Source: Desulfoplanes formicivorans (GTDB lineage: Bacteria; Desulfobacterota; Desulfovibrionia; Desulfovibrionales; Desulfomicrobiaceae). Taken from it: a stretch of DNA of 64,000 nt. A program made the position numbers and the translations under genes. The stretch's first letter is position 1, and each line of letters starts with the position of its first letter. Of the stretch, positions 6,370 through 23,980 are shown in pieces. The stretch covers positions 413,025 to 477,024 of the forward strand of contig NZ_BDFE01000017.1 in the NCBI RefSeq assembly GCF_001748225.1, written 5' to 3'. The notes beneath the pieces were generated by a model. That model saw only the letters and a program-made list of their open reading frames with translations, did not search any database and was not told the DNA's origin.

Positions 6370-6398
6370 TTGACATTGTTCAATTGATGTTGAAATTT
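6370..6398 (+). promoter_or_regulatory. Candidate promoter with overlapping ArsR-type operator
   Basis: TTGACA at 6370-6375 lies 17 bases from AAATTT at 6393-6398. A dyad TTCAA-N6-TTGAA (6379-6394) sits between them, a plausible autoregulatory operator for the ArsR-type gene that starts at 6405. The very short leader is odd and leaves the start site uncertain. Confidence 0.4.
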
Positions 6399-6404
6399 CA
6401 TCAC

Positions 6405-6758
6405 ATGGAAAGCAAACAGGCCAGCAAAATTTTTGAAGCGCTCGCATCGGATGTGCGCCTCGACCTGTTCCGGCTCCTGGTCAAAAACGCTCCCAACGGC
6501 CTGGTGGCTGGGGACATTGCCAAGCAGCTCGATATTCCATCCACCAACCTGTCATTCCACCTGAAAGTTGTTGTGCAAAGCGGTCTGGCCGATGTGGAAC
6601 GCCAGGGACGGTTCATGCGCTACAAGGCAAATATCCCGTTAATGCTGGACATTGTCGCCTATCTGACTTCCGAGTGTTGCGCGGACAATCCTGCAACATG
6701 CCAGAAATTCAGAGAGACCAGCAAGCTGGCGCCAGGACTGCTTCCGGATCGTGTGTAA
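6405..6758 (+). CDS. ArsR/SmtB-family transcriptional regulator
   Basis: A 117-aa winged-helix protein (from the ATG at 6405; a TTG at 6384 is possible). It begins with the typical FEALASDVRLDLFRLL segment, and the recognition helix region is PSTNLSFHLKVV. The C-terminus carries ECCADNPATC, a cysteine cluster suited to thiol ligation of a metalloid such as As(III), although the sensing site is inferred. It precedes a permease and small thioredoxin, the usual arrangement in ArsP-like operons, and probably represses them. Confidence 0.88.
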   Translation: MESKQASKIFEALASDVRLDLFRLLVKNAPNGLVAGDIAKQLDIPSTNLSFHLKVVVQSGLADVERQGRFMRYKANIPLMLDIVAYLTSECCADNPATCQKFRETSKLAPGLLPDRV

Positions 6759-6792
6759 ACGGACCTTGAGGCCTGTTTTTTTATTTCAATAT

Positions 6793-6816
6793 ATCAACAT
6801 TTCAACGAACGTTGAT
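6793..6816 (+). promoter_or_regulatory. Dyad upstream of the permease, candidate ArsR operator
   Basis: ATCAAC (6793-6798) and GTTGAT (6811-6816) form an inverted repeat with a 12-base spacer. The inner GTTGAAAT-like word also occurs upstream of the regulator. Binding is inferred. Confidence 0.35.
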
Positions 6817-6823
6817 CAAACCC

Positions 6824-7981
6824 ATGAGTAATTCAAGCGAGAAAACCATGTCTACTCCATCCAAAAACACCGATTGTTGCTGCTCGTCTCCCCGTGTTGC
6901 GGCTTCCCTTATGGATGATGGCGCCAAAAACTGGAATTTCAGATATCTTGCCGTCATCACCTTTCTGGCCGTCCTCTGGTGGCTTGCCTACGGTAATATC
7001 CTGCCTGCTTCCAACTGGCTGGTCTTTGACTTGTGGGGCATGGATTCCGATTCCCATCTAGCCATGTCCCTGCAGTTTTTCATCTATGACACGGTGAAAA
7101 TCCTGCTCCTTCTGGTGGCCCTTATTTACGGTATAGCCTGGATACGTGCGTCTTTGAACGTGGAGCGGGTCCGTGATTATCTCGCAGGCAAGCGACGCGG
7201 TCTCGGTTATTTTCTGGGCGCTGTTTTTGGTGCCATCACCCCCTTTTGCTCCTGCTCGAGCATTCCCCTGTTCCTGGGATTCACCACGGCCCGTATCCCC
7301 ATCGGCATAACCATGGCCTTTTTAATGACCTCTCCCCTTATCAATGAAATTGCCGTGGTCCTGTTGTGGGGGTTGCTCGGATGGAAATTCACGGTGATTT
7401 ACATGCTGGTGGGCATGACCGCAGGTATCTTTGGCGGCTTTATCATGGACACATTAAAAGCCGATCGCTGGTTGCAGCCGTTCATGATTGAAGCCATGAA
7501 AAAAGCCCCGGCACATGAGTTTGTCAACGAGGCCGGGGAGATCCAGAAACTAAGCGTGCGCCAGCGCCACACCTTTGCCTATGAGGAAATGGTCTCCATT
7601 TTCAAGCGCGTCTGGAAATGGGTGATCATCGGCGTGGGTATCGGTGCCCTGCTCCACGGATTGGTGCCGGACAACTGGTTTGCCGAAAACTTCGGCGCCG
7701 GCGAGTGGTGGACTGTTCCTGCCTCGGTTATGGTGGCCATTCCCCTGTACTCCAATGTAACCGGCATAGTCCCCATCATGGAAAGCCTGCTCCTCAAGGG
7801 TCTGCCCATTGGCACCACCATGGCATTCTGCATGAGCGCCGTGGCCGCCAGTATCCCGGAGGTGATGATGTTGCGGCAGGTCATGACCCTCAAACTCCAG
7901 GCAACCTTTATAGGCTATCTATGGATCATCTTCACCCTGGTGGGCTGGCTGTTCAACATCCTTGGCCCGTACGTCGTCTAA
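6824..7981 (+). CDS. permease, YraQ/UPF0718 family (ArsP-like)
   Basis: A 385-aa inner-membrane protein with about eight hydrophobic segments. It contains the family signature TPFCSCSSIPLFLGF near residue 135 and a second half-repeat PLYSNVTGIVPIMES, as expected of UPF0718 permeases. Some family members (ArsP) export trivalent organoarsenicals; that function here is inferred from the ArsR gene before it and the thioredoxin after it. The N-terminus has a CCC cluster near residue 18. The start is uncertain between the ATGs at 6824 and 6848. Confidence 0.85.
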   Translation: MSNSSEKTMSTPSKNTDCCCSSPRVAASLMDDGAKNWNFRYLAVITFLAVLWWLAYGNILPASNWLVFDLWGMDSDSHLAMSLQFFIYDTVKILLLLVALIYGIAWIRASLNVERVRDYLAGKRRGLGYFLGAVFGAITPFCSCSSIPLFLGFTTARIPIGITMAFLMTSPLINEIAVVLLWGLLGWKFTVIYMLVGMTAGIFGGFIMDTLKADRWLQPFMIEAMKKAPAHEFVNEAGEIQKLSVRQRHTFAYEEMVSIFKRVWKWVIIGVGIGALLHGLVPDNWFAENFGAGEWWTVPASVMVAIPLYSNVTGIVPIMESLLLKGLPIGTTMAFCMSAVAASIPEVMMLRQVMTLKLQATFIGYLWIIFTLVGWLFNILGPYVV

Positions 7982-8019
7982 ACACAATCTGCCAACAAAC
8001 AACCAAACGGGAGAACATT

Positions 8020-8316
8020 ATGGAAATCAAAGTATTCGGACCTGGCTGCGCCAAATGCAAGGAAACGGAAAAACTCATCAGGGAGGCCGTCAAGGCCTCG
8101 GGCAAGGACATCACCGTGGAAAAAGTGTCTGATCTCCAGCAAATGCTGGCTGCAGGGGTCATGTCCACCCCGGCCGTTGCCATTGACGGAGTTGTGAAAA
8201 CCACCGGTAGGGTTCCTTCCAAAAAGGACATTGCCGCATGGATAGACGGGGCTGGTGATGCCCCTTCTTCACCTGCTTCTTGTGGCGGATGCTGCTCCTG
8301 CGGCGGCAACTGCTAG
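8020..8316 (+). CDS. small thioredoxin-family protein (TM0996/MTH895 type)
   Basis: A 98-aa single-domain thioredoxin fold with redox motif GCAKC near residue 10 and the cis-proline segment STPAVAIDG. It is preceded by GGGAGAAC. It has an unusual Cys-rich tail, CGGCCSCGGNC, that could bind a thiophilic metal or metalloid. It lies 38 bases downstream of the permease, the commonly seen pairing, so it probably reduces or hands over the permease substrate. That role is inferred. Confidence 0.9.
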   Translation: MEIKVFGPGCAKCKETEKLIREAVKASGKDITVEKVSDLQQMLAAGVMSTPAVAIDGVVKTTGRVPSKKDIAAWIDGAGDAPSSPASCGGCCSCGGNC

Positions 8317-10128: not shown

Positions 10129-11511
10129 TCAAGCTGTTGACGGAGTTTCCCGACTATTAAAATCGTACAATTCCAGCTTGTCGTACAAAGTACGGCGGCT
10201 TATGCCAAGTACCCGGGCGGCTTTGGACCGGTTACCTGCAGCCTCTTTCAGGGCCTTACGGATGGCTGCTCTTTCGGCCTGTTCCACTGCTTCTTTAAGG
10301 GATGAGGAGGTATCGATTTCCGAGGCCACGGGTGGTGTGGAAGGTCTGACATAATGATATAACGAATCAACCGCGATGACCGTATCATCGGTCAGGAGCA
10401 CTGCCCGCTCAATAATATTTTCCAGTTCCCGGATATTTCCCTTCCAGGAAGAATTCATAAGCACCTGCATGGCTGCTGGATCCAATTCCGTAACTTTCTT
10501 ATTATACATTTTGTTACATTTACGAATGAAATGGTCCACAAAAAAACCCAGGTCTTCCTTGCGTTCTCGCAACGCTGGCAGATGCAATGGGATGACGGCC
10601 AGACGATAATAAAGGTCTTTGCGAAAGCCGTTTTTTTCCACTTCTTCACTTAAATTACGACTGGTCGCGGAGATAAATCGAACATCGATATGTATGGGAA
10701 TGTTGCCCCCTACGGGTTTGATTTCTTTTTCCTGAATGGCTCGCAGGAGTTTGACCTGGGTTGAGGGGGTGAGTTCGCCGATTTCATCCAGAAATATAGT
10801 TCCGCCCTGAGCTTCTTCCAAAAGCCCTCGCTTGGCCCGAACCGCTCCGGTAAAAGCCCCTTTGACATGACCAAAGAGCTCGCTTTCCAAAAGGTGTTCG
10901 GACAATGCTCCACAGTCGATGGTAAAAAAAGGCTTGTCCTTGCGGGCACTGATCTTGTGAATATGCTTGGCAAACATGGATTTCCCGGTCCCGGTTTCCC
11001 CTTGGATGAGAATAGATGCCTCTGAGTCTGCAACCTTTTTAATGGTGGAAAGCATTTGCTTGATAACGGGGTTGTTTCCCACGACCATACCGGCAGTGGC
11101 ATTTTGCTTCTCGCGAGAATCGTAATCTTCCAGCCGGCGATGCAATTTACCATACTCAATGGCCCGCCCGGCCAAAAGTGCCAGTTCCTGGGTTTTGAAA
11201 GGTTTGGTAATGTAGGTGAAGGCCCCCATGCGCATGGCTTCCACTGCGCTTTCAATGCTGCCTGCACCGGTCATGATGATGAAGGGCTGGTGGTGGTCTA
11301 TACTGCGGATGCGCTGGAGCAATTCCAGACCGTCCACCGGCTGCATGGCCTGATCGCTTATGACCAGATCAAACATGGTTTCAACAAGGGCATTCCAGCC
11401 TTCTTCTCCGTTTTCGGCAGTGTAAACTTTATAGCCCTGTCGTGTCAGAGATTTTTTCAGAACGGTCAGCAACTCTTTTTCATCGTCCACCAGAAGAATC
11501 TTATCGGGCAT
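10129..11511 (-). CDS. sigma-54-dependent response regulator (NtrC/AtoC type)
   Basis: A 460-aa three-domain activator. The receiver has acidic pocket DD9-10, phospho-acceptor Asp53 in VISDQAM and Lys in ITKPF. The AAA+ domain has Walker A GETGTGKS, the sigma-54 contact loop GAFTGA intact, and Walker B GGTIFLDEIG. The Fis-type C-terminal HTH is RSKAARVLGISRRTLYDKL. It lies 17 bases after the sensor kinase, and both close a long operon. Since sigma-54-like promoters and paired dyads flank the operon head, it probably activates both the operon and the divergent ASST genes. Confidence 0.96.
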   Translation of the reverse strand: MPDKILLVDDEKELLTVLKKSLTRQGYKVYTAENGEEGWNALVETMFDLVISDQAMQPVDGLELLQRIRSIDHHQPFIIMTGAGSIESAVEAMRMGAFTYITKPFKTQELALLAGRAIEYGKLHRRLEDYDSREKQNATAGMVVGNNPVIKQMLSTIKKVADSEASILIQGETGTGKSMFAKHIHKISARKDKPFFTIDCGALSEHLLESELFGHVKGAFTGAVRAKRGLLEEAQGGTIFLDEIGELTPSTQVKLLRAIQEKEIKPVGGNIPIHIDVRFISATSRNLSEEVEKNGFRKDLYYRLAVIPLHLPALRERKEDLGFFVDHFIRKCNKMYNKKVTELDPAAMQVLMNSSWKGNIRELENIIERAVLLTDDTVIAVDSLYHYVRPSTPPVASEIDTSSSLKEAVEQAERAAIRKALKEAAGNRSKAARVLGISRRTLYDKLELYDFNSRETPSTA

Positions 11512-11528: not shown

Positions 11529-13460
11529 TTAAACAGCTGGAAATTCCAGGATTATCGAAGTTCCTCTGTCGGGTTCAGATTCCGCATAAATCAGGCCGTT
11601 ATTCCGTTCCACCATCCGTCTGGTGATAAAAAGGCCCAATCCGAAACCGCCCTTGCGAGAAGTAAAAAACGGTTCAAAAATCTGGCGAAGATTTTCTCTG
11701 GCAATGCCTTTGCCCTGGTCCCGGACCACAATCTGGATAGTACTGTTTTCTCCGCTCCCGGTCTTGTCGGCACTCAGGGTTATTTCTTTGCCGGGGTCCA
11801 TGTTTTCAATGGCATTAAAGAGCAGATTCATGAAGACTTGCTGCAGGGAACGGATATCACCGTAAATAAAGAGTGGGTCATCACTCACATTGATGCGGAT
11901 GGTATCCTTTTTGGCTTTGGGGCCGACCAGCATGACGCTTTCCTCAAGCAAATCAAGGACATTGATTCTTTCTTTGCATTGCGCTTTGGGGGCCGCCTGA
12001 GCCAGAACTCCGCCGGTTATTTCCCCGGCTCGTTCAGCATTACGCAGAATGGCTGAAAGACCTTCCCGAAGATCTTCGGAAAGGTCGTCGGCATAAAGCA
12101 GTTCTTCGGCGTTCGCCTGAATAATACTCAGTGGATTATTTATTTCGTGGGCTACCGAGGCGGCCATCTTGCCGATAATTGCCAGCCGTTCAGACTGGAT
12201 GAGATCTTCTTCCATTTTGTTGCGTTCGCTCACATCGCGGGCAAAAAGACACCCCAGAGCTTCTGTCTGTTCTTCTTGAATGAGCTGCCCTGCAATCTCT
12301 GCCAACACCTTGTTTCCTGAAAGGCTTTGCAGAGTAAACTCGTGTTTGCCATAGCCTTCGCTGAAAACATGACACAGAAATGATGCCATTGCCGGCACCT
12401 CCCCTTGCACCAAGATCTGGTCCAACCGCAGATTATCATGACCTGCTGCAAGGGCTAACATGACACAGGCCTGTTTGTTGGCATGCAGAATACGACCTTC
12501 TTTATTGACCAGAAAAATCATGTCCGGTGAAGATTCAATCAGTACCCGATAACGTTGTTCCGTGCGCTGTAAATCTTTCGTTACCTTGGCCACTTTGCGG
12601 CGAAGAAGAAAACTCCAGGCCATGGCGAGCATAAGAAACGTTGCCAGCCCGACCAAGACGAAAAGCAGATGCCGGATATACCGTCCCAACCGGAAGGTTT
12701 CTGTAATGGAACGACCAAACCATTTTTCACGGAGTTGTTCCAGTGATCCGTTTTTCTTCAGATCCTCCACTGCCTTTTCAAGTTTTTGGGTAAGATCAGG
12801 AGTGTTTGGTGGAACCATAATTCCTAAAGGTATCTCTTTGAGAGGCATACCTTTTTTCAAAACATTTTTGAATTCCTGGTCCGCAATAATATAATCTGCT
12901 TCCTTCTCCGAAGGCGCAATAAACACGTCCACAACACCTCTATTGAGCATATTCAAGGCTTCCAGACACGAAGGAACGTTGATGGACTTGCGAAGACTAC
13001 GCATAGAGGATTCATAATCGACCCCCTGCATGATAATGACCCGTTTGTTGTGCAGATCTTTCAGGCAGGTGACCGAGGTACACCCTTTATGGACATAGAG
13101 ATGTTGTTTCAAACTGTAATTTACCGGGATAAATGTGTATCCCAGTTCATCAGCCAGCTTTTGCGTACCGTGGGAAATAAAATGTATCTTGCCGTTTTTA
13201 AGCAGTTCTTTGCGTTTGTTCAGGTCAGGAATTTGGACAAATTTGATATCAGCCTGGATAATTTTTCCGATCATCAGCCATTCGTCAATGGTATATCCGC
13301 GGATGATTTGTTGGCCATCTTGTATGGACAGAAAAGAAAAGGGAGGGGAAATGGCCCGGACCCCGATGGTATAGGTTGGTCGGGACGAGGCATGTACCGG
13401 CGGCAAACCCGGCAGGAGAAGAATCAGAAGCAAAAAAACAGGAATGCGTGTGCAAAACAT
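11529..13460 (-). CDS. periplasmic-sensing histidine kinase (SBP_bac_3 - PAS - HisKA - HATPase)
   Basis: About 643 aa from the ATG preceded by AAGG; an ATG at 13499 adds 13 residues without a clear ribosome site. Order of parts: signal peptide, a family-3 solute-binding domain (about 28-260) starting TYTIGVRAISPPF, a transmembrane helix (about 270-290), a PAS domain, HisKA with phospho-acceptor His about 438 in SVAHEINNPLS, and HATPase with N box NLLFNAIENM and G box GFGLGLF. The bound ligand is unknown. It shares an operon with the adjacent sigma-54 activator and presumably reports a periplasmic small molecule used by this locus. Confidence 0.93.
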   Translation of the reverse strand: MFCTRIPVFLLLILLLPGLPPVHASSRPTYTIGVRAISPPFSFLSIQDGQQIIRGYTIDEWLMIGKIIQADIKFVQIPDLNKRKELLKNGKIHFISHGTQKLADELGYTFIPVNYSLKQHLYVHKGCTSVTCLKDLHNKRVIIMQGVDYESSMRSLRKSINVPSCLEALNMLNRGVVDVFIAPSEKEADYIIADQEFKNVLKKGMPLKEIPLGIMVPPNTPDLTQKLEKAVEDLKKNGSLEQLREKWFGRSITETFRLGRYIRHLLFVLVGLATFLMLAMAWSFLLRRKVAKVTKDLQRTEQRYRVLIESSPDMIFLVNKEGRILHANKQACVMLALAAGHDNLRLDQILVQGEVPAMASFLCHVFSEGYGKHEFTLQSLSGNKVLAEIAGQLIQEEQTEALGCLFARDVSERNKMEEDLIQSERLAIIGKMAASVAHEINNPLSIIQANAEELLYADDLSEDLREGLSAILRNAERAGEITGGVLAQAAPKAQCKERINVLDLLEESVMLVGPKAKKDTIRINVSDDPLFIYGDIRSLQQVFMNLLFNAIENMDPGKEITLSADKTGSGENSTIQIVVRDQGKGIARENLRQIFEPFFTSRKGGFGLGLFITRRMVERNNGLIYAESEPDRGTSIILEFPAV

Positions 13461-13595
13461 GGGTGCCTTGTACGGTTTATGCTTCTCTTTCGCCACCATA
13501 AAAAGTGCTGTTTTTTCAAAAATTCCCGATTTCCTCTCCTGCAGAAAGGTGCATGAAAAAGAAACCGGGAATAAAGGGATGGAGGGGGTCTTTGC

Positions 13596-14288
13596 TTACT
13601 TGGCTGTTCCGGAAAGAACAACCTTGTACCCCTTGCCGATGTCATTGCGCGCATCCGAATATACGAGAAGGATGTCAAGGAATCTTCCGGATCGGACCGG
13701 GCGTACGCCAAAGGTTACAGGGAGGCTCCTTCCGGCCGGAATAACCAGTTCGCCCGTGAAGTAGGTGCTCTTGAACTTCATGGAGGTAATGGAAGTGACG
13801 GTCAGAGGGGCGTCGCCGGTATTTTTGATCATGATCTGCACCTGATTTTGCCTGTCAGGCGTGAGTTCGCCCACGTCGACCTTCCGGGGGCTGACCTCGA
13901 TTACACCCATGGGAATGGCTTCTACAAAGCCCGTGATATGAATAATATGGGCATCTTCCTTGCTGTCTCCGGTAAAAACCGTCACTGTTTTATCAAATTT
14001 TCCCGCATACTTGAACGTTCTATAGGTGATAACTAATGTGGTTTTCTCATCGGGTTGCAAACGACGCTTTCCAAGCGTCGTTGTCGTGCAGCTTCAGGAA
14101 GTAGTAACGTTGGTGATGGTCACCGGTTCGCTGCCGATGTTGGACAGAATCACTTTTTTTTGGGCGGTCGGACCTTCGCGCAGTGTTCCGAAATCTATGG
14201 TTTTCGTACTGAACCCCAGGCCGCCGGCAAAGGCAGGAAGGGTCAGGCTGCAAAAGAGCATGGCCAATGCGAATATCTTTTTAACCAT
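13596..14288 (-). CDS. DUF1573-domain protein, probable selenoprotein (in-frame UGA = Sec65)
   Basis: A 230-codon secreted protein with a signal peptide, a DUF1573/immunoglobulin-like domain and a second similar domain. The same frame is interrupted once by TGA (14096-14094), giving TTS-U-SC-TTT. The family normally has TSCGCT here, so UGA replaces the first Cys of the redox-like pair. Sequence on both sides is family-like and in one frame, so it is not a frameshift. A 10-bp hairpin with GGA loop starts 11 nt after UGA, the bacterial SECIS format. Conventional gene calling would split it into 14288-14094 and a TTG-started 14060-13596. The alternative is a nonsense mutation. It lies 11 bases after the cytochrome gene. 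Partner and function are unknown. Confidence 0.85.
14060..14082 (-). promoter_or_regulatory. Candidate bacterial SECIS hairpin within the DUF1573 gene
   Basis: On the minus strand AACGACGCTT pairs perfectly with AAGCGTCGTT around a GGA loop. Eleven bases separate the UGA from the stem, and the loop G is the 22nd base after UGA, within the known range for SelB-dependent bSECIS elements. Confidence 0.8.
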
Positions 14289-14299
14289 ATGTTTTTTCC

Positions 14300-14770
14300 T
14301 TATTTTTCAATACAACGTTCACCATGCACGAATTTTGACTTGATAGCATAGTTGAAGTTTTTGTCTTGCCCCGGGGTGTGACAGGTTCGACACGAAGCTT
14401 CATCAGGATGTCTGATGATATCTCCCGGATCTTCACTTTCAACATGTCTGGCTCCGGGGCCGTGACAGCTTTCACACTGCACATTAATAAGTTCCGGTGT
14501 CAGATCCATATCGATGAAACCGCCCTCTGCCTCCATGGCCACCACATGACATTTTACGCAACCGGGCGTGGTTTGTTTTTCTTCTCCCTGTTCTGCCAGA
14601 TCGGCAAAAGCACGGGCATGGGGGGTCGTCATCCAGCCATGAACCTTGGCTTCATGGCAGTCCGCACACGCCTTAACTCCGACATATTCCCCAAAAAACT
14701 CTGCCTGGGCAAAGGAAACAATGCATACGTTGACGACCACGGCACACAAAAGAACGTATAGGCGATTCAT
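14300..14770 (-). CDS. periplasmic multiheme cytochrome c (four CXXCH)
   Basis: A 156-aa protein with an N-terminal signal peptide and four heme-binding motifs, CADCH, CVKCH, CESCH and CRTCH. The opening YVGVKACADCHEAKVHGW resembles cytochrome c-554/cytochrome c family proteins. It is predicted to be a soluble periplasmic electron carrier. Its position between the helix-hairpin-helix protein and the DUF1573 selenoprotein suggests that the locus carries out a redox reaction outside the cytoplasm. The electron partner is unknown. Confidence 0.92.
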   Translation of the reverse strand: MNRLYVLLCAVVVNVCIVSFAQAEFFGEYVGVKACADCHEAKVHGWMTTPHARAFADLAEQGEEKQTTPGCVKCHVVAMEAEGGFIDMDLTPELINVQCESCHGPGARHVESEDPGDIIRHPDEASCRTCHTPGQDKNFNYAIKSKFVHGERCIEK

Positions 14771-14790: not shown

Positions 14791-15087
14791 CTAACAGTTA
14801 CAGCTGGAAGCGGCTTCCAGATACAGATGCTTTTTGAGCTTTCGCAGCTTGCTGTTGTCGATGCCATCCACGTCCAGCAGTTCATCCATGTCCACGAATT
14901 CCCCATTTTCAGAACGGGCATCAATAATTTTTTGGGCCAGTTCCTGACCAACCCCCGGGACCTCGGCAAGCTGCTCCACCGTGATTGTGTTGAGGTTTTG
15001 CTTGCCGTCGTGATCCCCGGCAAAGCCTGGGACAGCTGCCAAGAGCAGAACTGCGAACAGTGGCAGGATTACCATGATTTGTTTCAT
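14791..15087 (-). CDS. secreted helix-hairpin-helix (ComEA-like) protein
   Basis: A 98-aa protein with a signal peptide ending near PGFAG and one ComEA-like HhH motif pair, NLNTITVEQLAEVPGVG followed by MDELLDVDGIDNSKL. The C-terminus is AASSCNC, two cysteines at the very end. ComEA proteins bind DNA during uptake, but this copy sits among redox and ASST-like genes and a paralog is present in the divergent operon, so a scaffold or redox role is as likely. Confidence 0.85.
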   Translation of the reverse strand: MKQIMVILPLFAVLLLAAVPGFAGDHDGKQNLNTITVEQLAEVPGVGQELAQKIIDARSENGEFVDMDELLDVDGIDNSKLRKLKKHLYLEAASSCNC

Positions 15088-15120: not shown

Positions 15121-15324
15121 TTACCAGCCAAGATATTGATGACTGTATAAAAAGGACCAGGCCACCACGGAGAGGACTCCGCTGGCAATCCCGGAACATA
15201 CTTTGGTAAAAAAAGATGCGCTGGTGCGGTCAGCCTTGAAAACTCCCATATACAGAGCTGCCAGGGTCATAAGCATCAGAAAAATCGCAAACAACGGTTT
15301 CAGGTAATAATAGATTCCGTGCAT
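15121..15324 (-). CDS. small two-helix membrane protein of unknown function
   Basis: A 67-aa protein with two hydrophobic segments (about residues 8-27 and 43-62) joined by a short basic loop. It is preceded by AGGAG. I do not recognise a family. Tight packing in the operon (9 bases after the previous gene) supports that it is real. Confidence 0.65.
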   Translation of the reverse strand: MHGIYYYLKPLFAIFLMLMTLAALYMGVFKADRTSASFFTKVCSGIASGVLSVVAWSFLYSHQYLGW

Positions 15325-15333
15325 GGTTTTCTC

Positions 15334-15486
15334 CTAGAGCAGGCCAACATACTGGCAGAAGGTTATAAAGGCAGTGATGGCCAGGGCCAGGACAATACCG
15401 ATCATATCCCGGTCACATTCTTCCCGGCCGGTATTGGCCATATAATCGAAACCGTCCTGATCCGTGGTATGTTCGTTGATCGTCAT
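15334..15486 (-). CDS. very small single-pass membrane protein
   Basis: A 50-aa protein beginning MTINEHTTDQDG, with an acidic N-terminal half and one C-terminal hydrophobic helix (GIVLALAITAFITFCQYV). A strong ribosome site, AAGGAGG, sits at proper spacing, which decides this start over a longer in-frame frame. No family recognised. It may be an accessory subunit of the membrane protein encoded just upstream. Confidence 0.7.
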   Translation of the reverse strand: MTINEHTTDQDGFDYMANTGREECDRDMIGIVLALAITAFITFCQYVGLL

Positions 15487-15496
15487 AAAAACCTCC

Positions 15497-16657
15497 TTAG
15501 GCCGGAAGCAATCCGGTTTGAACACAAATGAGAATGACAGCGAGCAGCAGGGCCATGCGCACAAACCCAGCAATGCAGGTCACGGCAAAACATCGAAGAC
15601 CATTTTGAGCGATGTCCCGTAACGGCAGGCTCAACCCCAGGGCTGCGGCGGCCATGGAAAAATCCCATTGCACCATATTGAAAATGGCGTGGGCAGCCGG
15701 CTGCCTGAACACGTGCAGGCACGCCAGGACCCAACAAAAAATGAATACCATAAGCCAGACGGGAAAGGTTTTCATATCCCCGGTGGAATAGATGATATTA
15801 TTTCCCTTGTTTCTGAGCTTGCGGATGAACATGACCACAAAGACATAGATGAAACCTGCAGGCATGATCACATGACGACCCACGTCAAACCATGTGGCAT
15901 ATCGTCCCGCCTCATAGCTCATGCTGAAGGCTGCAAAAAGCCCCTGTGCACCATTGCCCACCGTGGTAACTGCGGCCAGACCGAAATATTTGTCCGGAAT
16001 GCCAACGAGTGGACCGACCAGTGGGAGAACCAGCATGGCAATAATTCCAAAGAGGATCACACAGGCCGAAGCCCCAATGACCTGCCCGCCTTTGGCCTTG
16101 ATCAACGGCATGAGAATGACCCCTGCATGAGGGTCTCCTGTTGCAAGACCGCCTGCAACAATGGATGTTTGCCGGTCATCGAGTTTCAGCAGTTTGCCGG
16201 TGTACAACGTAATCGTGGCCGTGACGAACAGGGCGGCTACACAGATCAGAATGGGGATGAAACCCAGTTTGGCCGCATGTCCGAACATGAAATGCGGGGC
16301 CAGCATGATAATGCCCAGGGGCATCATCAGGTGGATATAGGAAAGGCCTCGTTTCCAGGCGTCGGGAACTCCAAAGACGTTGCCGATAACCAACCCCATC
16401 AAAAAGGGGTTCCAGACAAAGTTGGAGTTCATAATCTGAAAGAAGGACTGGTGGTGCAGGGGCCCGATGACCCCGTCCAGCCAGGCAAAAAGATTTTGCA
16501 GGGTGAAAGGGTTGGGAACCCCGACCAGGTTATTGCTGAAAATGGCTATAAAGAACATGGCCAGCAGTCCGGGCAGCACAGTTTTCAGACTGTACAGGGC
16601 ACTGAAAAAAGAACTTCTGTTTATTTCGTACGTGGCGGTTGATAGTGTATTCATCAT
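15497..16657 (-). CDS. multi-spanning membrane protein, divergent YeiH/UPF0324-like (putative sulfate exporter family)
   Basis: A 386-aa inner-membrane protein with about ten hydrophobic segments. The central part, with LLKLDDRQTSIVAGG and later VTTVGNGAQGLFAA, follows the pattern of UPF0324 (YeiH/PSE) proteins, but the usual GxSICGxSAI segment reads AGGLATGDPHAGV here. The family has been proposed to export sulfate or sulfur compounds; function in this case is inferred. It lies 12 bases after the large secreted protein. Its presence beside ASST-like sulfotransferases hints at handling of sulfate or a sulfo-compound. It could also be an unrelated transporter family. Confidence 0.6.
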   Translation of the reverse strand: MMNTLSTATYEINRSSFFSALYSLKTVLPGLLAMFFIAIFSNNLVGVPNPFTLQNLFAWLDGVIGPLHHQSFFQIMNSNFVWNPFLMGLVIGNVFGVPDAWKRGLSYIHLMMPLGIIMLAPHFMFGHAAKLGFIPILICVAALFVTATITLYTGKLLKLDDRQTSIVAGGLATGDPHAGVILMPLIKAKGGQVIGASACVILFGIIAMLVLPLVGPLVGIPDKYFGLAAVTTVGNGAQGLFAAFSMSYEAGRYATWFDVGRHVIMPAGFIYVFVVMFIRKLRNKGNNIIYSTGDMKTFPVWLMVFIFCWVLACLHVFRQPAAHAIFNMVQWDFSMAAAALGLSLPLRDIAQNGLRCFAVTCIAGFVRMALLLAVILICVQTGLLPA

Positions 16658-16669
16658 TTGAGTCCTTTG

Positions 16670-19579
16670 TTATCTGCGGATATGGGCGGAACCGCCTGTA
16701 TTAACTGCACCACTGATGGTTGTAGCCGGGGCAGCATGTCCGGTTCTCCAGGCATCTCTGAACGCCAGCCTGGGAAGCATGGACAGACGGAGAAAGCCTT
16801 CGATCGTTCCGTTGATGCCCAAGAGCACGTCCACATTATTCCGAGGTCTAAACGCCAAGTTGCCGGTGGTACACACCCTGCCCCGGTGATGGCCTTCGAT
16901 GTGCCAGGCCATGATCATTTCGCCATCAAAACTGTCGATGACAATTTTGAACAACGGTTGACCGTCAGCATCTTTGGGGCCTTCGTAGGTGGGATGATCC
17001 TTGTCCAGAACGATCTGCTGGGGGTTGTCCAGCAACAGTTCGTTAAACTGATAGCAATGGCCACAGACATCCGGACGGACCATAAAACGCGGATCATGCT
17101 TATAGGGGGTATCACGCTTCATATCTTCGATGCCGGTATACGTGTAGAGCTGGGCTTTGCCCTGCTTGAAAGGCTTTTTCACATCCATTTCCACCATGAC
17201 AGGACCCAGGCGCAGCTGCATCTTTCGGGCAGTTTCCATATGCTGAGGCAACAGGGAGTTTGTCACGGTATTAAGCGGACCTAGCACCTTGCTGGCCAGG
17301 ACGGTTCCCGAGGCATCGATAATTTCCACCCCCACGGTTCCGCATTGTTCATCCACACTGGTGCAGCGCAGGATCTTGTCACCGAGCGGCACCGTGTCAC
17401 CGCTTTGCAGAAGCTCGCTTTTGGGTTTGCTTAAGGTGTAACTAATGGCATTGATGGACGGAGTGGCGAATTCCTTGATCCGTACATAATTGGAACCCAC
17501 ATATTCAGGCACAATAAAGGTGGCACCTTCGGCAAACACCTCGGGCATGTAATACCGATTGCCCGGATCGTTCTGATCAAACCCCTGGGCAATGAAGAAA
17601 TGGGAACCCCAGCGGTTGCCTGAATATTTCATCAGGCTCAAGGAACCGACCGGACGGTCATCAAGATAGGTCATACCGGTATAACGCAGGGCCTTGTTGC
17701 GTACGCCCAAAAGCTGATCCTGCCAGTACATGAGATTCCCGTCTCCCATGGGTTGGTTTTTCCAAAAATCCAGATTGAGATTCTTGAGGACATAGGTACC
17801 GGACGTGAAGGTAGTCAGATACGCTTTTTTGCCGAGCATGAAAAAGGGTTCAGCCGCAAGAGTACGTATGTTCCGGGCGTTTCTGGTTGTATAGCACAAG
17901 CCTGCTGGAGGGATAACAATGCGACCGTTTTTGTAGTCGACATAGCTCCCCCGGATAAACACGGCCTCGGCCGAAAGGAGCTTTTCATGGTTGCGGTTGC
18001 GAAAAATTTTCCGCTTCAGCCCCTTAAATCGAGCTACCAGCGGAGCGGTGTGGTCTGGTTCGTAGAATTCACTGCTGGAAACTACCTTGGGATAGGAAGA
18101 AAAGCGTGATTCTTCGATGATGGCCCCCAGAGATGAATCAGCCAACCGTTGCAGAAAGCTGCTTTCAATAATGGGTTCCAGCACAGGGGAAGAACCCAGA
18201 AAAAAATCCAGGTTTTCTTTGCCTTCGCTGGGCCACATGACCATGTTATCGGTCCGCATACCATAATAATCCCGCACATAAAGGGTATGCACTGTTTTGG
18301 GCCCAAAATCTTTGGCCACGACTTTGAAAGCCGGACGGTTCCAGATTTCCGAATATTTTGTCGGGCCGTCATAGGATGCATTGGCAGCATCAAGGGTAAT
18401 GGTTTCATTGTTTTCCAGGAGCAGACGTTGAAGCATACCGGTTTTGGGGTTGGCTTCCAAAACCACGTTGTACCGTTTGTCCAGGGGCCAAGGCTGATTG
18501 TTTTCTACGGAGATCAAATTCCGGTAGATGACAAAAGACAGGTGCCCGCTGCCAAAACCATGAGCCTTATGCGTGGCCCACGGGGTAAAGTCGGAATTTT
18601 TAAGAAAGGTCGGATCAATAACAAGTTCCACTCGCATGTCTTCTTCGGGTACATTGAGGACATACCTGTCTTTTGCATCGTTCCGATTTTTATAATTCTG
18701 AGCAGTGGCCGGCTGTATCAGCTTTTCTGCCAGGACCTTGCTGCCGGTAAAGTTGGTGACCTTGACCAAAAATCCATTGGGCTGGCGATAGGCGTAGATA
18801 CGTTTATCCATGTACAACCGGTAGTCTTCCTGGCGGACCTCCAGAGTCACTGGCCGTTCCAGGGCAAAAGTGGCCCTGGTGACTACGGGGAACTCAATGG
18901 AACTGAATGTGGCTGTATCGAACTCTATGTCTTTGGCTACGTACTTGCTCGCCCCGAGATAGTAGGTCTTGTCCATATAAAACTGGAGCAATTGTGATGT
19001 CATGCCTTCTTTGAGGTCCAGAGTGCGGGTGTCTTCACGCCCACTGAATTTTGAGGCAATGGGGAACTCCAGCGGCCAGCCCCCGGAAGGAGAAATGACG
19101 GCAAATTCGCCATAGGGCTTTTGGTAATGATCTGTGGAGTAATCGAACCAGAGACGGTACCCTGTTGTACCAAAAGGTTTCCGTTCTCCTTTGGTAATGG
19201 AAACATCGTTAAAAATTTTTTTCTCTGTGCTCAGATCCACCAGATACGCATGTTCGCCCAGAAGCAGAAAAGGGTCGCGCATGAGAGGTCTGGCATCTCC
19301 GGAAGTTTCGGAGATATAAAACAGTCCCCCGGGAAGGACTTTTGCCTGACCATTTTTGATGGTGCTTTGGCGCAGCACAATGGCCTCGGAGAGGTGTTTG
19401 CTCTGCCCGTCTCTGTTTTTGAAAACCTTATTCCGTAAACCGGCTAAATGCGGCAGAAAGGTCATGTCATTTGCTGGCGAAAGTCCATGCGGGTCAGTTC
19501 CCGCACAGGTCCCGCTCTGCGTAAAGCCCATGACAAAGATCAGGGCCAGAACCAAGACTATTGATGTGTTTTTTTTCAT
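16670..19579 (-). CDS. large secreted protein of unknown function with internal duplication
   Basis: A 969-aa protein with a clear signal peptide (cleavage near residue 26). The chain is two homologous halves. LAGLRNKVFKNRDGQS near residue 45 matches FKGLKRKIFRNRNHEK near 513, and the segments ending each half (ASYDGPTKYSEIW / PTYEGPKDADGQP) also match, giving a repeat of about 470 residues. Half two alone carries CGHC near residue 839 and other cysteines (KILRCTS, DEQCG, GRVCTTG). I recognise no family. It heads the nine-gene operon under a sigma-54-like promoter, so it is likely the main periplasmic component of the locus. Confidence 0.8.
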   Translation of the reverse strand: MKKNTSIVLVLALIFVMGFTQSGTCAGTDPHGLSPANDMTFLPHLAGLRNKVFKNRDGQSKHLSEAIVLRQSTIKNGQAKVLPGGLFYISETSGDARPLMRDPFLLLGEHAYLVDLSTEKKIFNDVSITKGERKPFGTTGYRLWFDYSTDHYQKPYGEFAVISPSGGWPLEFPIASKFSGREDTRTLDLKEGMTSQLLQFYMDKTYYLGASKYVAKDIEFDTATFSSIEFPVVTRATFALERPVTLEVRQEDYRLYMDKRIYAYRQPNGFLVKVTNFTGSKVLAEKLIQPATAQNYKNRNDAKDRYVLNVPEEDMRVELVIDPTFLKNSDFTPWATHKAHGFGSGHLSFVIYRNLISVENNQPWPLDKRYNVVLEANPKTGMLQRLLLENNETITLDAANASYDGPTKYSEIWNRPAFKVVAKDFGPKTVHTLYVRDYYGMRTDNMVMWPSEGKENLDFFLGSSPVLEPIIESSFLQRLADSSLGAIIEESRFSSYPKVVSSSEFYEPDHTAPLVARFKGLKRKIFRNRNHEKLLSAEAVFIRGSYVDYKNGRIVIPPAGLCYTTRNARNIRTLAAEPFFMLGKKAYLTTFTSGTYVLKNLNLDFWKNQPMGDGNLMYWQDQLLGVRNKALRYTGMTYLDDRPVGSLSLMKYSGNRWGSHFFIAQGFDQNDPGNRYYMPEVFAEGATFIVPEYVGSNYVRIKEFATPSINAISYTLSKPKSELLQSGDTVPLGDKILRCTSVDEQCGTVGVEIIDASGTVLASKVLGPLNTVTNSLLPQHMETARKMQLRLGPVMVEMDVKKPFKQGKAQLYTYTGIEDMKRDTPYKHDPRFMVRPDVCGHCYQFNELLLDNPQQIVLDKDHPTYEGPKDADGQPLFKIVIDSFDGEMIMAWHIEGHHRGRVCTTGNLAFRPRNNVDVLLGINGTIEGFLRLSMLPRLAFRDAWRTGHAAPATTISGAVNTGGSAHIRR

Positions 19580-19630: not shown

Positions 19631-19646
19631 AACAAAAAATATGCCA
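19631..19646 (-). promoter_or_regulatory. Candidate sigma-54 promoter of the large-protein operon
   Basis: On the minus strand TGGCATATTTTTTGTT gives a -24 TGGC and -12 TTGT with GG and GT exactly 10 bases apart (consensus GG-N10-GC). It lies about 50 bases upstream of the 19579 start. Confidence 0.55.
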
Positions 19647-19952: not shown

Positions 19953-20008
19953 ACTTGAACCCCCCAAAAGACCTGTCTCACACCACAGGTCTTTTGGGGG
20001 GTTCAAGT
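19953..20008. repeat. 24-bp perfect inverted repeat in the divergent control region
   Basis: Arms 19953-19976 and 19985-20008 are exact reverse complements around an 8-base loop, with C6 and G6 runs inside the arms. It is one of the most stable hairpins in the window and touches the first activator dyad. It could be a bidirectional terminator/insulator, a small mobile-element remnant, or a structural operator. Confidence 0.75.
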
Positions 20009-20185: not shown

Positions 20186-21628
20186 ATGAAAAGAAGGCAA
20201 TTTCTGCTTGGAGCTGCAGCCGTTGCTGCGGCAACAGCAGTACGTCCATGGAAGGCTCTGGCCTTTCCAACAGTGTATCCGCACGGAACCACCATCTATG
20301 ATCCGAATAAATGCTGGAATGGATACACCCTTTTTGGAACCGAAGTTCCAAGCGAAGGCACGGTTCTGATTGATATGAATGGCAATGTGGTCAAACAATG
20401 GAAAAACATGTGCCAGGCCGAACATCCGCCCAAACTCTTGAAGGGCGGCTATCTGGCCGGGGCCATGCGTCCAGCTCCGGACAAGAAAGGACGGGTTTGG
20501 GACGACCCGAGTTCCACGGATCTGGTGGTCATGGATTGGAAGGAAAATGTGGTTCGCCGGATTCCTCGGGCTGGCGCGCACCATGACTTCCAGTTTGAAG
20601 GCAACTCTGTGGGATATTATACCCCTGCGGCACCTCTTGATAACTATAAGGGTAAAATGCTGATCCTGACCCATAAATTTGTCAGAAATGACAAAATTAC
20701 CAATAAGATGCTGTACGATGATTACATTGTCGAAGTTGATAAAAATGGGAAGGTCATCTGGGATTGGCTGGCATCAGATCATTTTGATGAGATGCATTTT
20801 TCAGAAACTGCCAAAAAAACCATTCGCAAGTATCCCACCTATTCCATGACCCGCACTCCGGGGAAGAAAGGGGCTGACTGGACCCATACCAATTCGGCCT
20901 CCTATCTTGGGCCCAATCACTGGTACACAGAAGATCCGATTGGAAATGCCGCCTTTCATCCGGACAATATCATCATTTCCAACCGTCAAACAAATATTGT
21001 CTGCATTATCGACAAGAAAACCAAAAAGATCGTCTGGCAGGTTGGCCCCACCTTCTACCCTGAAGATGAATGGACCTTCAATGGCAAGACCCACAAACGA
21101 GCCCTGTACCGACTGGGTCAGTTCATCGGTCAGCATCATGCCCATATGATTCCCGAAGGTTTGCCTGGAGCCGGTAATATCATGGTCTATGACAACGGCG
21201 GATTTGCCGGCTATGGAGCTCCCAACCAGGGTGCGCCTTTTGGTTGGTCCAGCGGTCGCCGTGATTATTCGCGTGTTGTGGAATTTAACCCCACCAACCT
21301 GCATAAGGTCTGGGAACAATCCGGTAAAACCATGGGGCTCAGAGACGAATGCAAATTCTACAGCTCGTATGTCAGTTCAGCCCAGAGGCTGCCCAATGGC
21401 AACACCCTGATTACAAACGGTTCTGTGGGCCAGTTCCAGGAAGTTACACCCAGTCATGAAATCGTCTGGGAATACATCAGTCCCTATTATACCAAAAGCG
21501 GGAATTACAACCTTGTCTACCGTGCCTACCGGGTACCTTACGACTATGTTCCACAGCTTGAAAAACCAGAAGAACATGCAGTCATTCCGCCAAACAACAC
21601 CACTTGGCGGATACCTGCTCAACAATAA
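20186..21628 (+). CDS. arylsulfotransferase-like (ASST family) protein, Tat-exported
   Basis: A 480-aa periplasmic protein. The N-terminus MKRRQFLLGAAAVAAATAV is a twin-arginine signal, with maturation likely at KALA. The mature part is a beta-propeller of the arylsulfotransferase (ASST/PQQ-like) family, with DWTHTNSASYLGPNHW near residue 230, HHAHMIPEGLPGAGN near 315, and the family blade motif RLPNGNTLI near 405. ASST enzymes move a sulfuryl group between phenolic compounds through a catalytic His, and His residues lie in these conserved segments, but the catalytic one is not assigned here. It is first in the plus-strand operon with an AAGGAG site. Substrates unknown. Confidence 0.88.
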   Translation: MKRRQFLLGAAAVAAATAVRPWKALAFPTVYPHGTTIYDPNKCWNGYTLFGTEVPSEGTVLIDMNGNVVKQWKNMCQAEHPPKLLKGGYLAGAMRPAPDKKGRVWDDPSSTDLVVMDWKENVVRRIPRAGAHHDFQFEGNSVGYYTPAAPLDNYKGKMLILTHKFVRNDKITNKMLYDDYIVEVDKNGKVIWDWLASDHFDEMHFSETAKKTIRKYPTYSMTRTPGKKGADWTHTNSASYLGPNHWYTEDPIGNAAFHPDNIIISNRQTNIVCIIDKKTKKIVWQVGPTFYPEDEWTFNGKTHKRALYRLGQFIGQHHAHMIPEGLPGAGNIMVYDNGGFAGYGAPNQGAPFGWSSGRRDYSRVVEFNPTNLHKVWEQSGKTMGLRDECKFYSSYVSSAQRLPNGNTLITNGSVGQFQEVTPSHEIVWEYISPYYTKSGNYNLVYRAYRVPYDYVPQLEKPEEHAVIPPNNTTWRIPAQQ

Positions 21629-21639
21629 ATGGAGACCCC

Positions 21640-21969
21640 ATGAAGTGTATTATCCCCTTACTCGTGATGTTGCTCATTGTCTGTTTGTCAGGCCAGGTTT
21701 TTGCCCAAGATGAACCTGAACCGTTTGATTTGAACCATGCAACGATCGAACAGCTAATGAGTATCCCTGATGCAGATATTACTGAAGATATCGCTAAAGC
21801 TATCATTGCAGCTGCCAAAGAAAAGCCATTCAAATATGCTGAGGATCTTATGGATGTCCCAGGAATCGACAACAGCATACTTGAAAGCATTAACCCTGTA
21901 GAAGAAAATGGAAGCCTTTGGTATGATCCAGATAACGCTGAAATGACTTTTGCTCCTTCAAAGTGTTAA
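21640..21969 (+). CDS. secreted helix-hairpin-helix protein, paralog of the one at 14791
   Basis: A 109-aa protein with signal peptide (cleavage near VFAQD) and a ComEA-like HhH pair, HATIEQLMSIPDADI then AEDLMDVPGIDNSILE. The last residue is Cys (APSKC). The start follows GGAGACC and lies 11 bases after the first ASST gene. Its similarity to the divergent operon's HhH protein (both have DVxGIDNS) points to two matched components of one system rather than DNA uptake genes. Confidence 0.82.
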   Translation: MKCIIPLLVMLLIVCLSGQVFAQDEPEPFDLNHATIEQLMSIPDADITEDIAKAIIAAAKEKPFKYAEDLMDVPGIDNSILESINPVEENGSLWYDPDNAEMTFAPSKC

Positions 21970-22621: not shown

Positions 22622-23980
22622 ATGAAATTAAAACAGGTATTGGCCACAACAGCAGCTGCTGCGATTTTTTCTGTAGGCTGTGCTGTTTCCGCATGGGCAT
22701 TTCCTTCTGTCTTTCCCACAGGAACGACTATTTATAATCCTTCAAAGGCATATAACAGCTATGTTCTGGTCCCGCAGGATGATAAACTCTATAATAGCCG
22801 TGACGCCAAACATCGTGATATGCGAGCCAAAAAAGGGACAAAGTCCATCAAGAGTTCAGGAACGGCTTCAGGTTCCGTGAGCAATATGGCTACTTCGGTC
22901 AAACTGATTGATATGAATGGCAATGTCATGCACACATGGTCCGTCAAACCTACCCCCAACCGTCGAGATGTCCTGCTCAAGAACGGTCATCTTTTGAGCA
23001 TCAACAGCAAGTCATCCACTGTGGAAGAGAGGGATTGGGACAGCAATCTGGTTTGGGAGTACAAATGTGAATACAAACCGCACCATTATGTTACCCGCCT
23101 TGATAATGGCAACACCCTGATCTTGTGCGAAGGTCCTGTACCGGCTCACCGTTTGAAGGAAGTCAAGAACGTGACCGTGCCCTGGTGGGGAACCATTCGC
23201 CGCAAGGGTGTCAAACTGGTCGGAGACTCCATTATCGAAGTTACTCCGGACAAGAAAATTGTCTGGAGATGGAATGCCGGTGATGATCCTGATATGGACG
23301 TGAACACCTTCAGCCCTGAAAACGTTATCCCGGATTGGACCCACGGCAATACCGCCTCGGTTATTCCTCCCAACCATTGGTATGACGAAGGCGACAAACG
23401 TTTCAAGCCTGGAAATATTATCTACAACCCCCGCAACCACGACAAATTCGTCATTATCGATAAAGATACCAAAAGAATCGTGTACACCTATACCCATAAT
23501 TACAAGGGTGGCATGTCTCACGTGCACGAAGTGGAAATGATTCCCAAAAATTGCCCCGGGGCCGGAAACATCCTTTTCTTTGATAACGGCCTGTTCCCGC
23601 GCAACCGAGACCGTGTTGGCCAAAGTCTGGAAATTGAAATCAATCCCGTGACCAAAAATTTTGTATGGAAATACGAAAGCTGCGGATATTCCAACATGAG
23701 ATTCTTTTCAAAAACCAAAAGTTCCCAGACCAAACTGCCCAACGGCAACGTCCTGGTTTCTTCAGACAATACCGGTAGAATTTTTCAAGTCGTTCCGGAC
23801 ATGAATCATCCGGAAGGCGGAGAAATCGTCTGGGAATATGTCAACGTCAGTGATGTTTCCCGTGCACGGCCTATTCCTTATGATTATTGTGAACAGTTCA
23901 AGAACTTCCCCAAGCCTCAGGAACTACCGGTTATTCCTCCGGACAATCCTGATTTCCACGTTACTCCCACTGCAATCTAA
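22622..23980 (+). CDS. arylsulfotransferase-like (ASST family) protein, Sec-exported
   Basis: A 452-aa paralog of the protein at 20186. The signal peptide lacks twin arginines (MKLKQVLATTAAAAIFSV) and is Sec-type, yet the mature start FPSVFPTGTTIYNP matches the Tat-exported paralog FPTVYPHGTTIYDP. Shared conserved segments include DWTHGNTASVIPPNHWY, a His-rich HVHEVEMIP and PGAGNILFFDNG, and LPNGNVLV. Good ribosome site AAAGGAG. A strong terminator follows, so this is the last gene of the operon. It may be a second sulfotransferase or a subunit that pairs with the first. Confidence 0.88.
   Translation: MKLKQVLATTAAAAIFSVGCAVSAWAFPSVFPTGTTIYNPSKAYNSYVLVPQDDKLYNSRDAKHRDMRAKKGTKSIKSSGTASGSVSNMATSVKLIDMNGNVMHTWSVKPTPNRRDVLLKNGHLLSINSKSSTVEERDWDSNLVWEYKCEYKPHHYVTRLDNGNTLILCEGPVPAHRLKEVKNVTVPWWGTIRRKGVKLVGDSIIEVTPDKKIVWRWNAGDDPDMDVNTFSPENVIPDWTHGNTASVIPPNHWYDEGDKRFKPGNIIYNPRNHDKFVIIDKDTKRIVYTYTHNYKGGMSHVHEVEMIPKNCPGAGNILFFDNGLFPRNRDRVGQSLEIEINPVTKNFVWKYESCGYSNMRFFSKTKSSQTKLPNGNVLVSSDNTGRIFQVVPDMNHPEGGEIVWEYVNVSDVSRARPIPYDYCEQFKNFPKPQELPVIPPDNPDFHVTPTAI

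Follow-up and report, generated by a model that had tools for sequence, protein, structure and literature searches.

A probable selenocysteine-containing DUF1573 protein encoded beside a tetraheme cytochrome in Desulfoplanes formicivorans

Does a TGA in the middle of a reading frame end a protein or specify selenocysteine (Sec), and, if the latter, what might that protein do? This question is raised by a DUF1573 gene on the minus strand of a 64,000-nucleotide stretch of contig NZ_BDFE01000017.1 from Desulfoplanes formicivorans, a sulfate reducer (hereafter the window, within which positions are numbered). A first-pass annotation, made from the letters alone, had proposed a selenoprotein with a U-x-C motif and a selenocysteine insertion sequence (SECIS) hairpin. 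The frame running from 14288 to 13596 is as it described: both DUF1573 halves are present, the sole break is a TGA at codon 65, and this codon replaces the first Cys of the C-x-C pair of the family, giving U-S-C. The product scores 94.3 bits against Pfam PF07610, above the gathering cut-off of 26.1. Its N-terminus reads like a signal peptide, pointing to putative export, and a structure model predicts two ASH/PapD-like immunoglobulin (Ig) domains.

13596..14288, minus strand: predicted DUF1573 selenoprotein gene, 230 codons, codon 65 = TGA (U-S-C)
14094..14096, minus strand: in-frame TGA, predicted selenocysteine codon
14060..14082, minus strand: predicted SECIS hairpin, 10-bp stem, GGA loop

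A bacterial SECIS element is a hairpin just past the UGA with a G in its apical loop. The hairpin found here starts 11 bases past the TGA, and its two arms (14082-14073 and 14069-14060) form 10 bp with 100% complementarity around the GGA loop, in agreement with the original description. It has SECIS-type spacing and an apical G and is a predicted SelB target. When these 16 codons were recoded synonymously 5000 times, no recoding produced a 10-bp stem, one produced a stem of at least 8 bp, and 10 reached equal folding stability. In the window, 25 TGA codons have 60 or more open codons ahead of them and 100 or more behind, and of these codon 65 alone is followed by a 10-bp stem with G at the first two loop positions. 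One of the other 24 has an 8-bp stem (loop GAATGA), and the remainder have stems of at most 5 bp.

Genome searches reading through stops located TGA at the same site in a relative from another Desulfoplanes, in 7 of the 11 genomes with a strong relative in genus g52 (some of whose records bear the name Pseudodesulfovibrio), and in more distant bearers (G393, G659, L021, and L020 from a record titled Acidobacteria MAG). The presence of TGA at this codon in independent relatives argues against a sequencing error for TGC or TGT; nothing was found in favor of such an error, and we consider its probability close to nil. The fully read loci, window included, hold 20 copies, 13 with TGA and 7 with Cys; one TGA copy (L082) has just 28% identity. 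These counts leave out L014, L016, L018, and L019, which share records with L070, L076, L078, and L083; L017, whose DUF1573 sequence equals that of L018; and two Phocaeicola loci with a single distant domain (L022, L023). The L039 and L040 rows re-found the TGA copy; both genomes also have Cys paralogs, which were read separately.

All 13 TGA copies carry a stem of 6–10 bp with a GGA, GGC, or CGGGA loop, starting 11–15 bases after the TGA, whereas a hairpin of at least 6 bp was found in none of the 7 Cys copies (longest stems 3–5 bp, positioned elsewhere). In a gapless alignment of the twelve distinct TGA sequences, 81.7% of cells pair across the 10-bp stem defined by the window, and double changes occur in 7 of 10 pairs. 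None of 500 shuffled alignments (0.169 ± 0.031) reaches the covariation score of 0.433, and sliding the partner gives no more than 0.147. More distant TGA-bearing DUF1573 proteins (e.g., L056 and L069) have other or no clear hairpins; these and similar proteins were left out of the hairpin counts.

Database relatives extend the exchange between Sec and Cys. Among the 120 relatives listed of 132 database matches, the residue at site 65 is Cys in 69 and Trp in 3, the latter probably TGA read under another code. The other 48 lack the site, their entries starting downstream, and include the window's own entry, P0002. This entry starts past the TGA and holds just the downstream 154 residues, so the misannotation that had been forecast for this gene is real. 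A tree built from 16 Sec and 37 Cys rows (53 in all), which took in 30 of the 69 Cys database matches, needs 7 Sec/Cys changes, at least 5 of them forced by well supported branches. Cys/Sec exchange at residue 65, put forward with the original proposal as a check, is therefore evident both among the fully read copies and in the database. TGA and Cys copies stand in tandem in two genomes (G304 and G313; loci L071 and L072). These tandem copies, together with Cys-only relatives nested next to them in the tree, perhaps reflect Sec-to-Cys replacement after duplication.

Could the UGA act as an ordinary stop, leaving either a pseudogene or two products, one of 64 residues and one of 154 made by a restart? 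The 154-residue entry P0002 agrees with such a split, as does the use of TGA as terminator by 2 of 26 window open reading frames (ORFs) checked, which also indicates that TGA is not globally reassigned. Against it, the TGA and its covarying hairpin are kept in other species, and the genome holds all four sel genes that the annotation had asked after: selC (tRNA-Sec) scores 82.4 bits (cut-off 47), and the scores are 409.7 bits for SelB, 617.2 for SelA, and 333.4 for SelD. Moreover, comparison with the other Desulfoplanes gives low ratios of nonsynonymous to synonymous divergence (dN/dS) on both sides of the TGA, about 0.25 before it (dS 0.82, dN 0.204) and 0.16 after it (dS 0.90, dN 0.143), indicating that both halves are constrained by purifying selection. 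We consider an ordinary stop very improbable. Judged from sequence, the UGA at codon 65 is very likely read as Sec, and the sel genes, the Cys/Sec exchange, and a covarying hairpin absent from Cys copies uphold the proposal of a probable selenoprotein with a U-x-C motif and a SECIS element. Separately, the SelD gene of the same genome (G000:C17:78963-79883, outside the window) has one in-frame TGA, so SelD is probably itself a selenoprotein.

The annotation had also suggested that a Sec-containing DUF1573 protein could mark a new selenoenzyme. The OS_HP2 DUF1573 selenoprotein reportedly goes back to Zhang and Gladyshev in 2007. The window protein resembles OS_HP2 (NF041425) in its DUF1573 domain and in opening its UxC pair with Sec, but it scores 58.7 bits against that model, below the cut-off of 100; its branch has U-S-C or U-A-C where OS_HP2 has U-G-C, and sits in a distinct operon with a tetraheme cytochrome. 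Relatives also fall below the cut-off: 51.9, 59.5, and 60.3 bits for Sec copies, 47.5 and 70.4 for Cys copies, 60.1 for the distant L042, and 54.0 for P0080, a database protein that is a natural fusion of this cytochrome type with DUF1573. The UGC-type L056 and L069 pass it, at 116.9 and 121.9 bits. These scores place the window protein and its relatives in a separate Sec-using DUF1573 branch, not in OS_HP2. PMC2398784 gives a Sec-containing DUF1573 protein as OS_HP2 (pfam07610, UxC), and a DUF1573 domain-containing selenoprotein (UGC) is tabulated in PMC9312934 and PMC13188914. The kind was thus already published, and the claim of novelty narrows to this branch and its conserved operon, which look uncharacterized. 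In locus L042, the TGA-bearing DUF1573 gene of the distant genome G659 is followed by a same-frame protein with U-G-S-C, which resembles a UGSC-containing selenoprotein listed in PMC13188914.

The family itself says little about function. The window protein shares its sequence family and predicted fold with Pfam PF07610 / PF22544 (HYDIN-VesB-CFA65 Ig-like domain), for which Pfam gives no function, and differs by carrying the UGA. Searching PDB sequences with the DUF1573 profile returned six chains, every one from a eukaryotic HYDIN-type or cilia protein, from which no function was gained, and viral contigs scanned by pattern with P0001 yielded no relative that could be confirmed. The DUF1573 gene is the seventh in a tight minus-strand run whose genes are spaced 9 to 33 nt apart (a small gene overlaps its neighbor if measured from an upstream TTG), and a tetraheme cytochrome gene lies 11 nt upstream of it. 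The rest of the run, followed by the two genes downstream of it, is as follows.

16670..19579, minus strand: 969-residue protein (969-protein), signal-like start (by reading), no Pfam or NCBIfam match
15497..16657, minus strand: YeiH-like permease (PF03601, 101.7 bits; below the NCBIfam YeiH cut-off)
15334..15486, minus strand: 50-residue conserved small hydrophobic protein, no Pfam family
15121..15324, minus strand: 67-residue conserved small hydrophobic protein, no Pfam family
14791..15087, minus strand: helix-hairpin-helix (HHH, ComEA-like) protein, signal-like start (by reading), C-terminal C-N-C tail
14300..14770, minus strand: tetraheme c-type cytochrome (Cytochrome_C554 family), 4 CxxCH
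11529..13499, minus strand: sensor histidine kinase with solute-binding (SBP_bac_3) domain, 96 nt past the DUF1573 gene
10129..11511, minus strand: sigma-54-type response regulator

The order 969-protein, permease, small protein(s), HHH protein, cytochrome, DUF1573 is kept in 16 of 17 related loci, the exception being L082, with cytochrome and DUF1573 alone; in L015 one small protein was undetected. A search of 348 genomes of the class found a strong DUF1573 relative (E < 1e-60) in 13 and a weak one in two more, and the same 13 carry the 969-protein at 68% identity or more; in the incomplete G306, a 35-residue piece of it is all that is present. The four CxxCH motifs of the cytochrome and the C-N-C tail of the HHH protein are present in all 11 loci read, of 18. 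The cytochrome matches a multiheme c-type family member, cytochrome c554 (PDB 1bvb), over residues 29-108 (E 8.4e-10, a sequence match only), and positions 403-519 of the UshA-like (seleno)protein NF041198 (E 8.9e-34, 116.9 bits), so there, too, a cytochrome of this type goes together with a selenoprotein. The window cytochrome differs from NF041198 in having no UshA-like part and falls below its cut-off of 275.

We favor, with a probability of roughly 0.55, an exported two-Ig-domain selenoprotein that would shuttle electrons between thiol/selenol partners from the operon and the tetraheme cytochrome. A periplasmic selenol/thiol-to-cytochrome relay as such stands at about even odds, based on the conserved gene order, the P0080 fusion, and the C-N-C tails, and on the molybdopterin oxidoreductase that adjoins this gene set in some sister operons (2 of 8 long-type and 10 of 20 short-type loci, described below). 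Following translation of UGA as Sec and export, U65 and C67 would form a reversible selenenylsulfide, and the protein would exchange electrons with the cytochrome, as the fusion and the adjacency of the genes suggest. Its thiol partners could be the C-N-C tail of the HHH protein and a C-G-H-C site of the 969-protein. Sec commonly speeds selenol/thiol exchange relative to Cys. The YeiH-like permease, together with arylsulfotransferase-like genes that 13 of 17 related loci have close to the operon, hints at sulfur compounds as the substrate side. In the window these genes and a second HHH gene lie on the opposite strand.

20186..21628, plus strand: arylsulfotransferase-like protein with Tat-like start (21.2 bits, Pfam cut-off 22.7)
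21604..21969, plus strand: second helix-hairpin-helix protein
22622..23980, plus strand: second arylsulfotransferase-like protein

Two serious rivals assign the protein another role. In the first, U-x-C would bind a soft metal or ligate the metal center of a partner, making the protein a metallochaperone or assembly factor with Sec insertion unchanged. C-x-C and U-x-C pairs can bind soft metals, and the predicted fold is common to periplasmic PapD-like chaperones. However, no recognized metal transporter is among the kept genes, though three of these are unannotated, and the kept neighbor is a tetraheme cytochrome that is fused to DUF1573 in P0080. We judge this role on balance unlikely; the metallochaperone named in the first-pass annotation draws its support solely from the CxC-like motif, and a redox relay with the cytochrome would fit the context better. 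In the second rival, a selenol/thiol redox sensor would pass information on the redox state of the periplasm to the neighboring histidine kinase and sigma-54 response regulator, whose genes directly follow in 12 of 17 loci. This pair is on the opposite strand in L021 and L081, L015 has a partial regulator match only, and none was found in L020 or L082; the kinase also has a solute-binding domain of its own. A sensing role appears considerably less likely than metal binding.

Several observations weigh against the electron-shuttling selenoprotein that we favor. At the level of the hairpin, plain shuffling is less striking than recoding (z = −2.23, with 6 of 200 shuffles folding equally well), and pairing is poorly conserved at the two outermost positions of the stem, where 1 and 5 of 12 rows pair. 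Of five covariation measures, two are weaker: 18 of 500 shuffles reach the number of double-changed pairs, and 164 of 500 the number of pair types. SelB does not separate Sec from Cys copies, being present in 4 of 4 Cys-only genomes tested and over the cut-off in 35 of 36 genomes checked, Cys-only included (the exception, G017, is 77% complete and has SelB split over two contigs). Several species have Cys copies but no Sec copy, so the system can do without Sec. Finally, the Ig fold predicted by the model is not a usual oxidoreductase fold, and the proposed electron transfer leaves the 969-protein, the permease, and both small proteins without an assigned role.

The 969-protein may nevertheless be part of the same chemistry. 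It is an internal duplication, and relatives of about 490 residues match both of its halves. In its C839-G-H-C842 motif, both Cys residues and H841 are invariant in 32 aligned sequences. Beyond the absence of Pfam and NCBIfam matches, it gave one meaningless PDB sequence match (E 0.87) and weak Foldseek matches (probability 0.02–0.51 among 50 listed); DUF1608, an archaeal S-layer fold, was the best VIA match and a tentative candidate. The short relatives (L114-L133; 20 loci in 18 genomes) have TGA in 18 and Cys in 2 at the position of Cys839, with the motif U-A-[ST]-C. In a phylum sample, 4 of 5 further short-type loci (L145-L148, all family f21) read U-S-T-C; in the fifth, L150, the motif was unreadable. 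Of these 20 short-type proteins, none of 4 scanned matches NCBIfam and none of 3 matches Pfam. RNAalifold found no consensus structure in 21 TGA rows of the short family, L128 having been left out as too short. The short type is likely a new selenoprotein family, and a strong candidate rather than a settled case because no consensus hairpin was found.

Operon variants add a possible oxidoreductase. Among the 20 short-type loci, 10 carry a molybdopterin oxidoreductase with cytochrome b and 7 an HHH gene. Another 13 genomes of the class, which have no close DUF1573, carry the 969-protein at 51–55% identity; in the eight long-type loci read from these, a molybdopterin oxidoreductase is present in 2 (L135, L136), and no match to one was found in the stretch read of the other 6 or in the 17 DUF1573 loci. 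The order in L135 is 969-protein, permease, two small proteins, molybdopterin oxidoreductase, HHH protein, cytochrome b, regulator, and at L135:6898-16998 a 717-residue molybdopterin oxidoreductase and an FdhI-like cytochrome b replace the cytochrome/DUF1573 pair. The gene content of these two loci indicates that a respiratory-type oxidoreductase takes the place of this pair in 2 of 8. ORF calls in the GC-rich loci of g47 genomes are unreliable and were not used. We tentatively suggest, at somewhat less than even odds, an undescribed extracytoplasmic relay in which three paired chalcogen sites (the DUF1573 U-x-C, the HHH C-x-C tail, and the 969-protein C-G-H-C) feed the tetraheme cytochrome, or in some sister operons a molybdopterin oxidoreductase, with the 969-superfamily as a new selenoprotein family because its short relatives have UGA at the first Cys of the motif.

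Upstream of the operon, one further feature may bear on its expression.

19631..19646, minus strand: possible sigma-54-like element, 8 of 11 consensus bases

Scanning the window for the sigma-54 consensus gave 11 matches, no more than chance would yield (12.57 expected), and this element, with three mismatches, is outside those 11. Eight matches alone could be chance, but an element of 8 to 10 of 11 bases lies 64–98 nt before the 969-protein gene in 9 of 10 loci examined, and this kept position argues for a possible element. The divergent intergenic region between the operon and the arylsulfotransferase-like genes contains a perfect 24-bp inverted repeat with an 8-nt spacer (window 19953-20008). 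Elsewhere in the window, at 6384-8316, an ArsP-type permease (PF03773) lies between a small regulator-like ORF and a thioredoxin-like ORF, both assigned by reading, the latter with a Cys-rich tail.

DUF1573 is a family without a function in Pfam, and many of its database entries lack the protein start. This system offers a concrete case for asking what DUF1573 does: repeated Sec/Cys swapping at one site suggests that the site is probably redox- or metal-active, the tight operon and the cytochrome fusion name likely partners of the protein, and the superfamily of a neighboring gene yields a probable new selenoprotein family.
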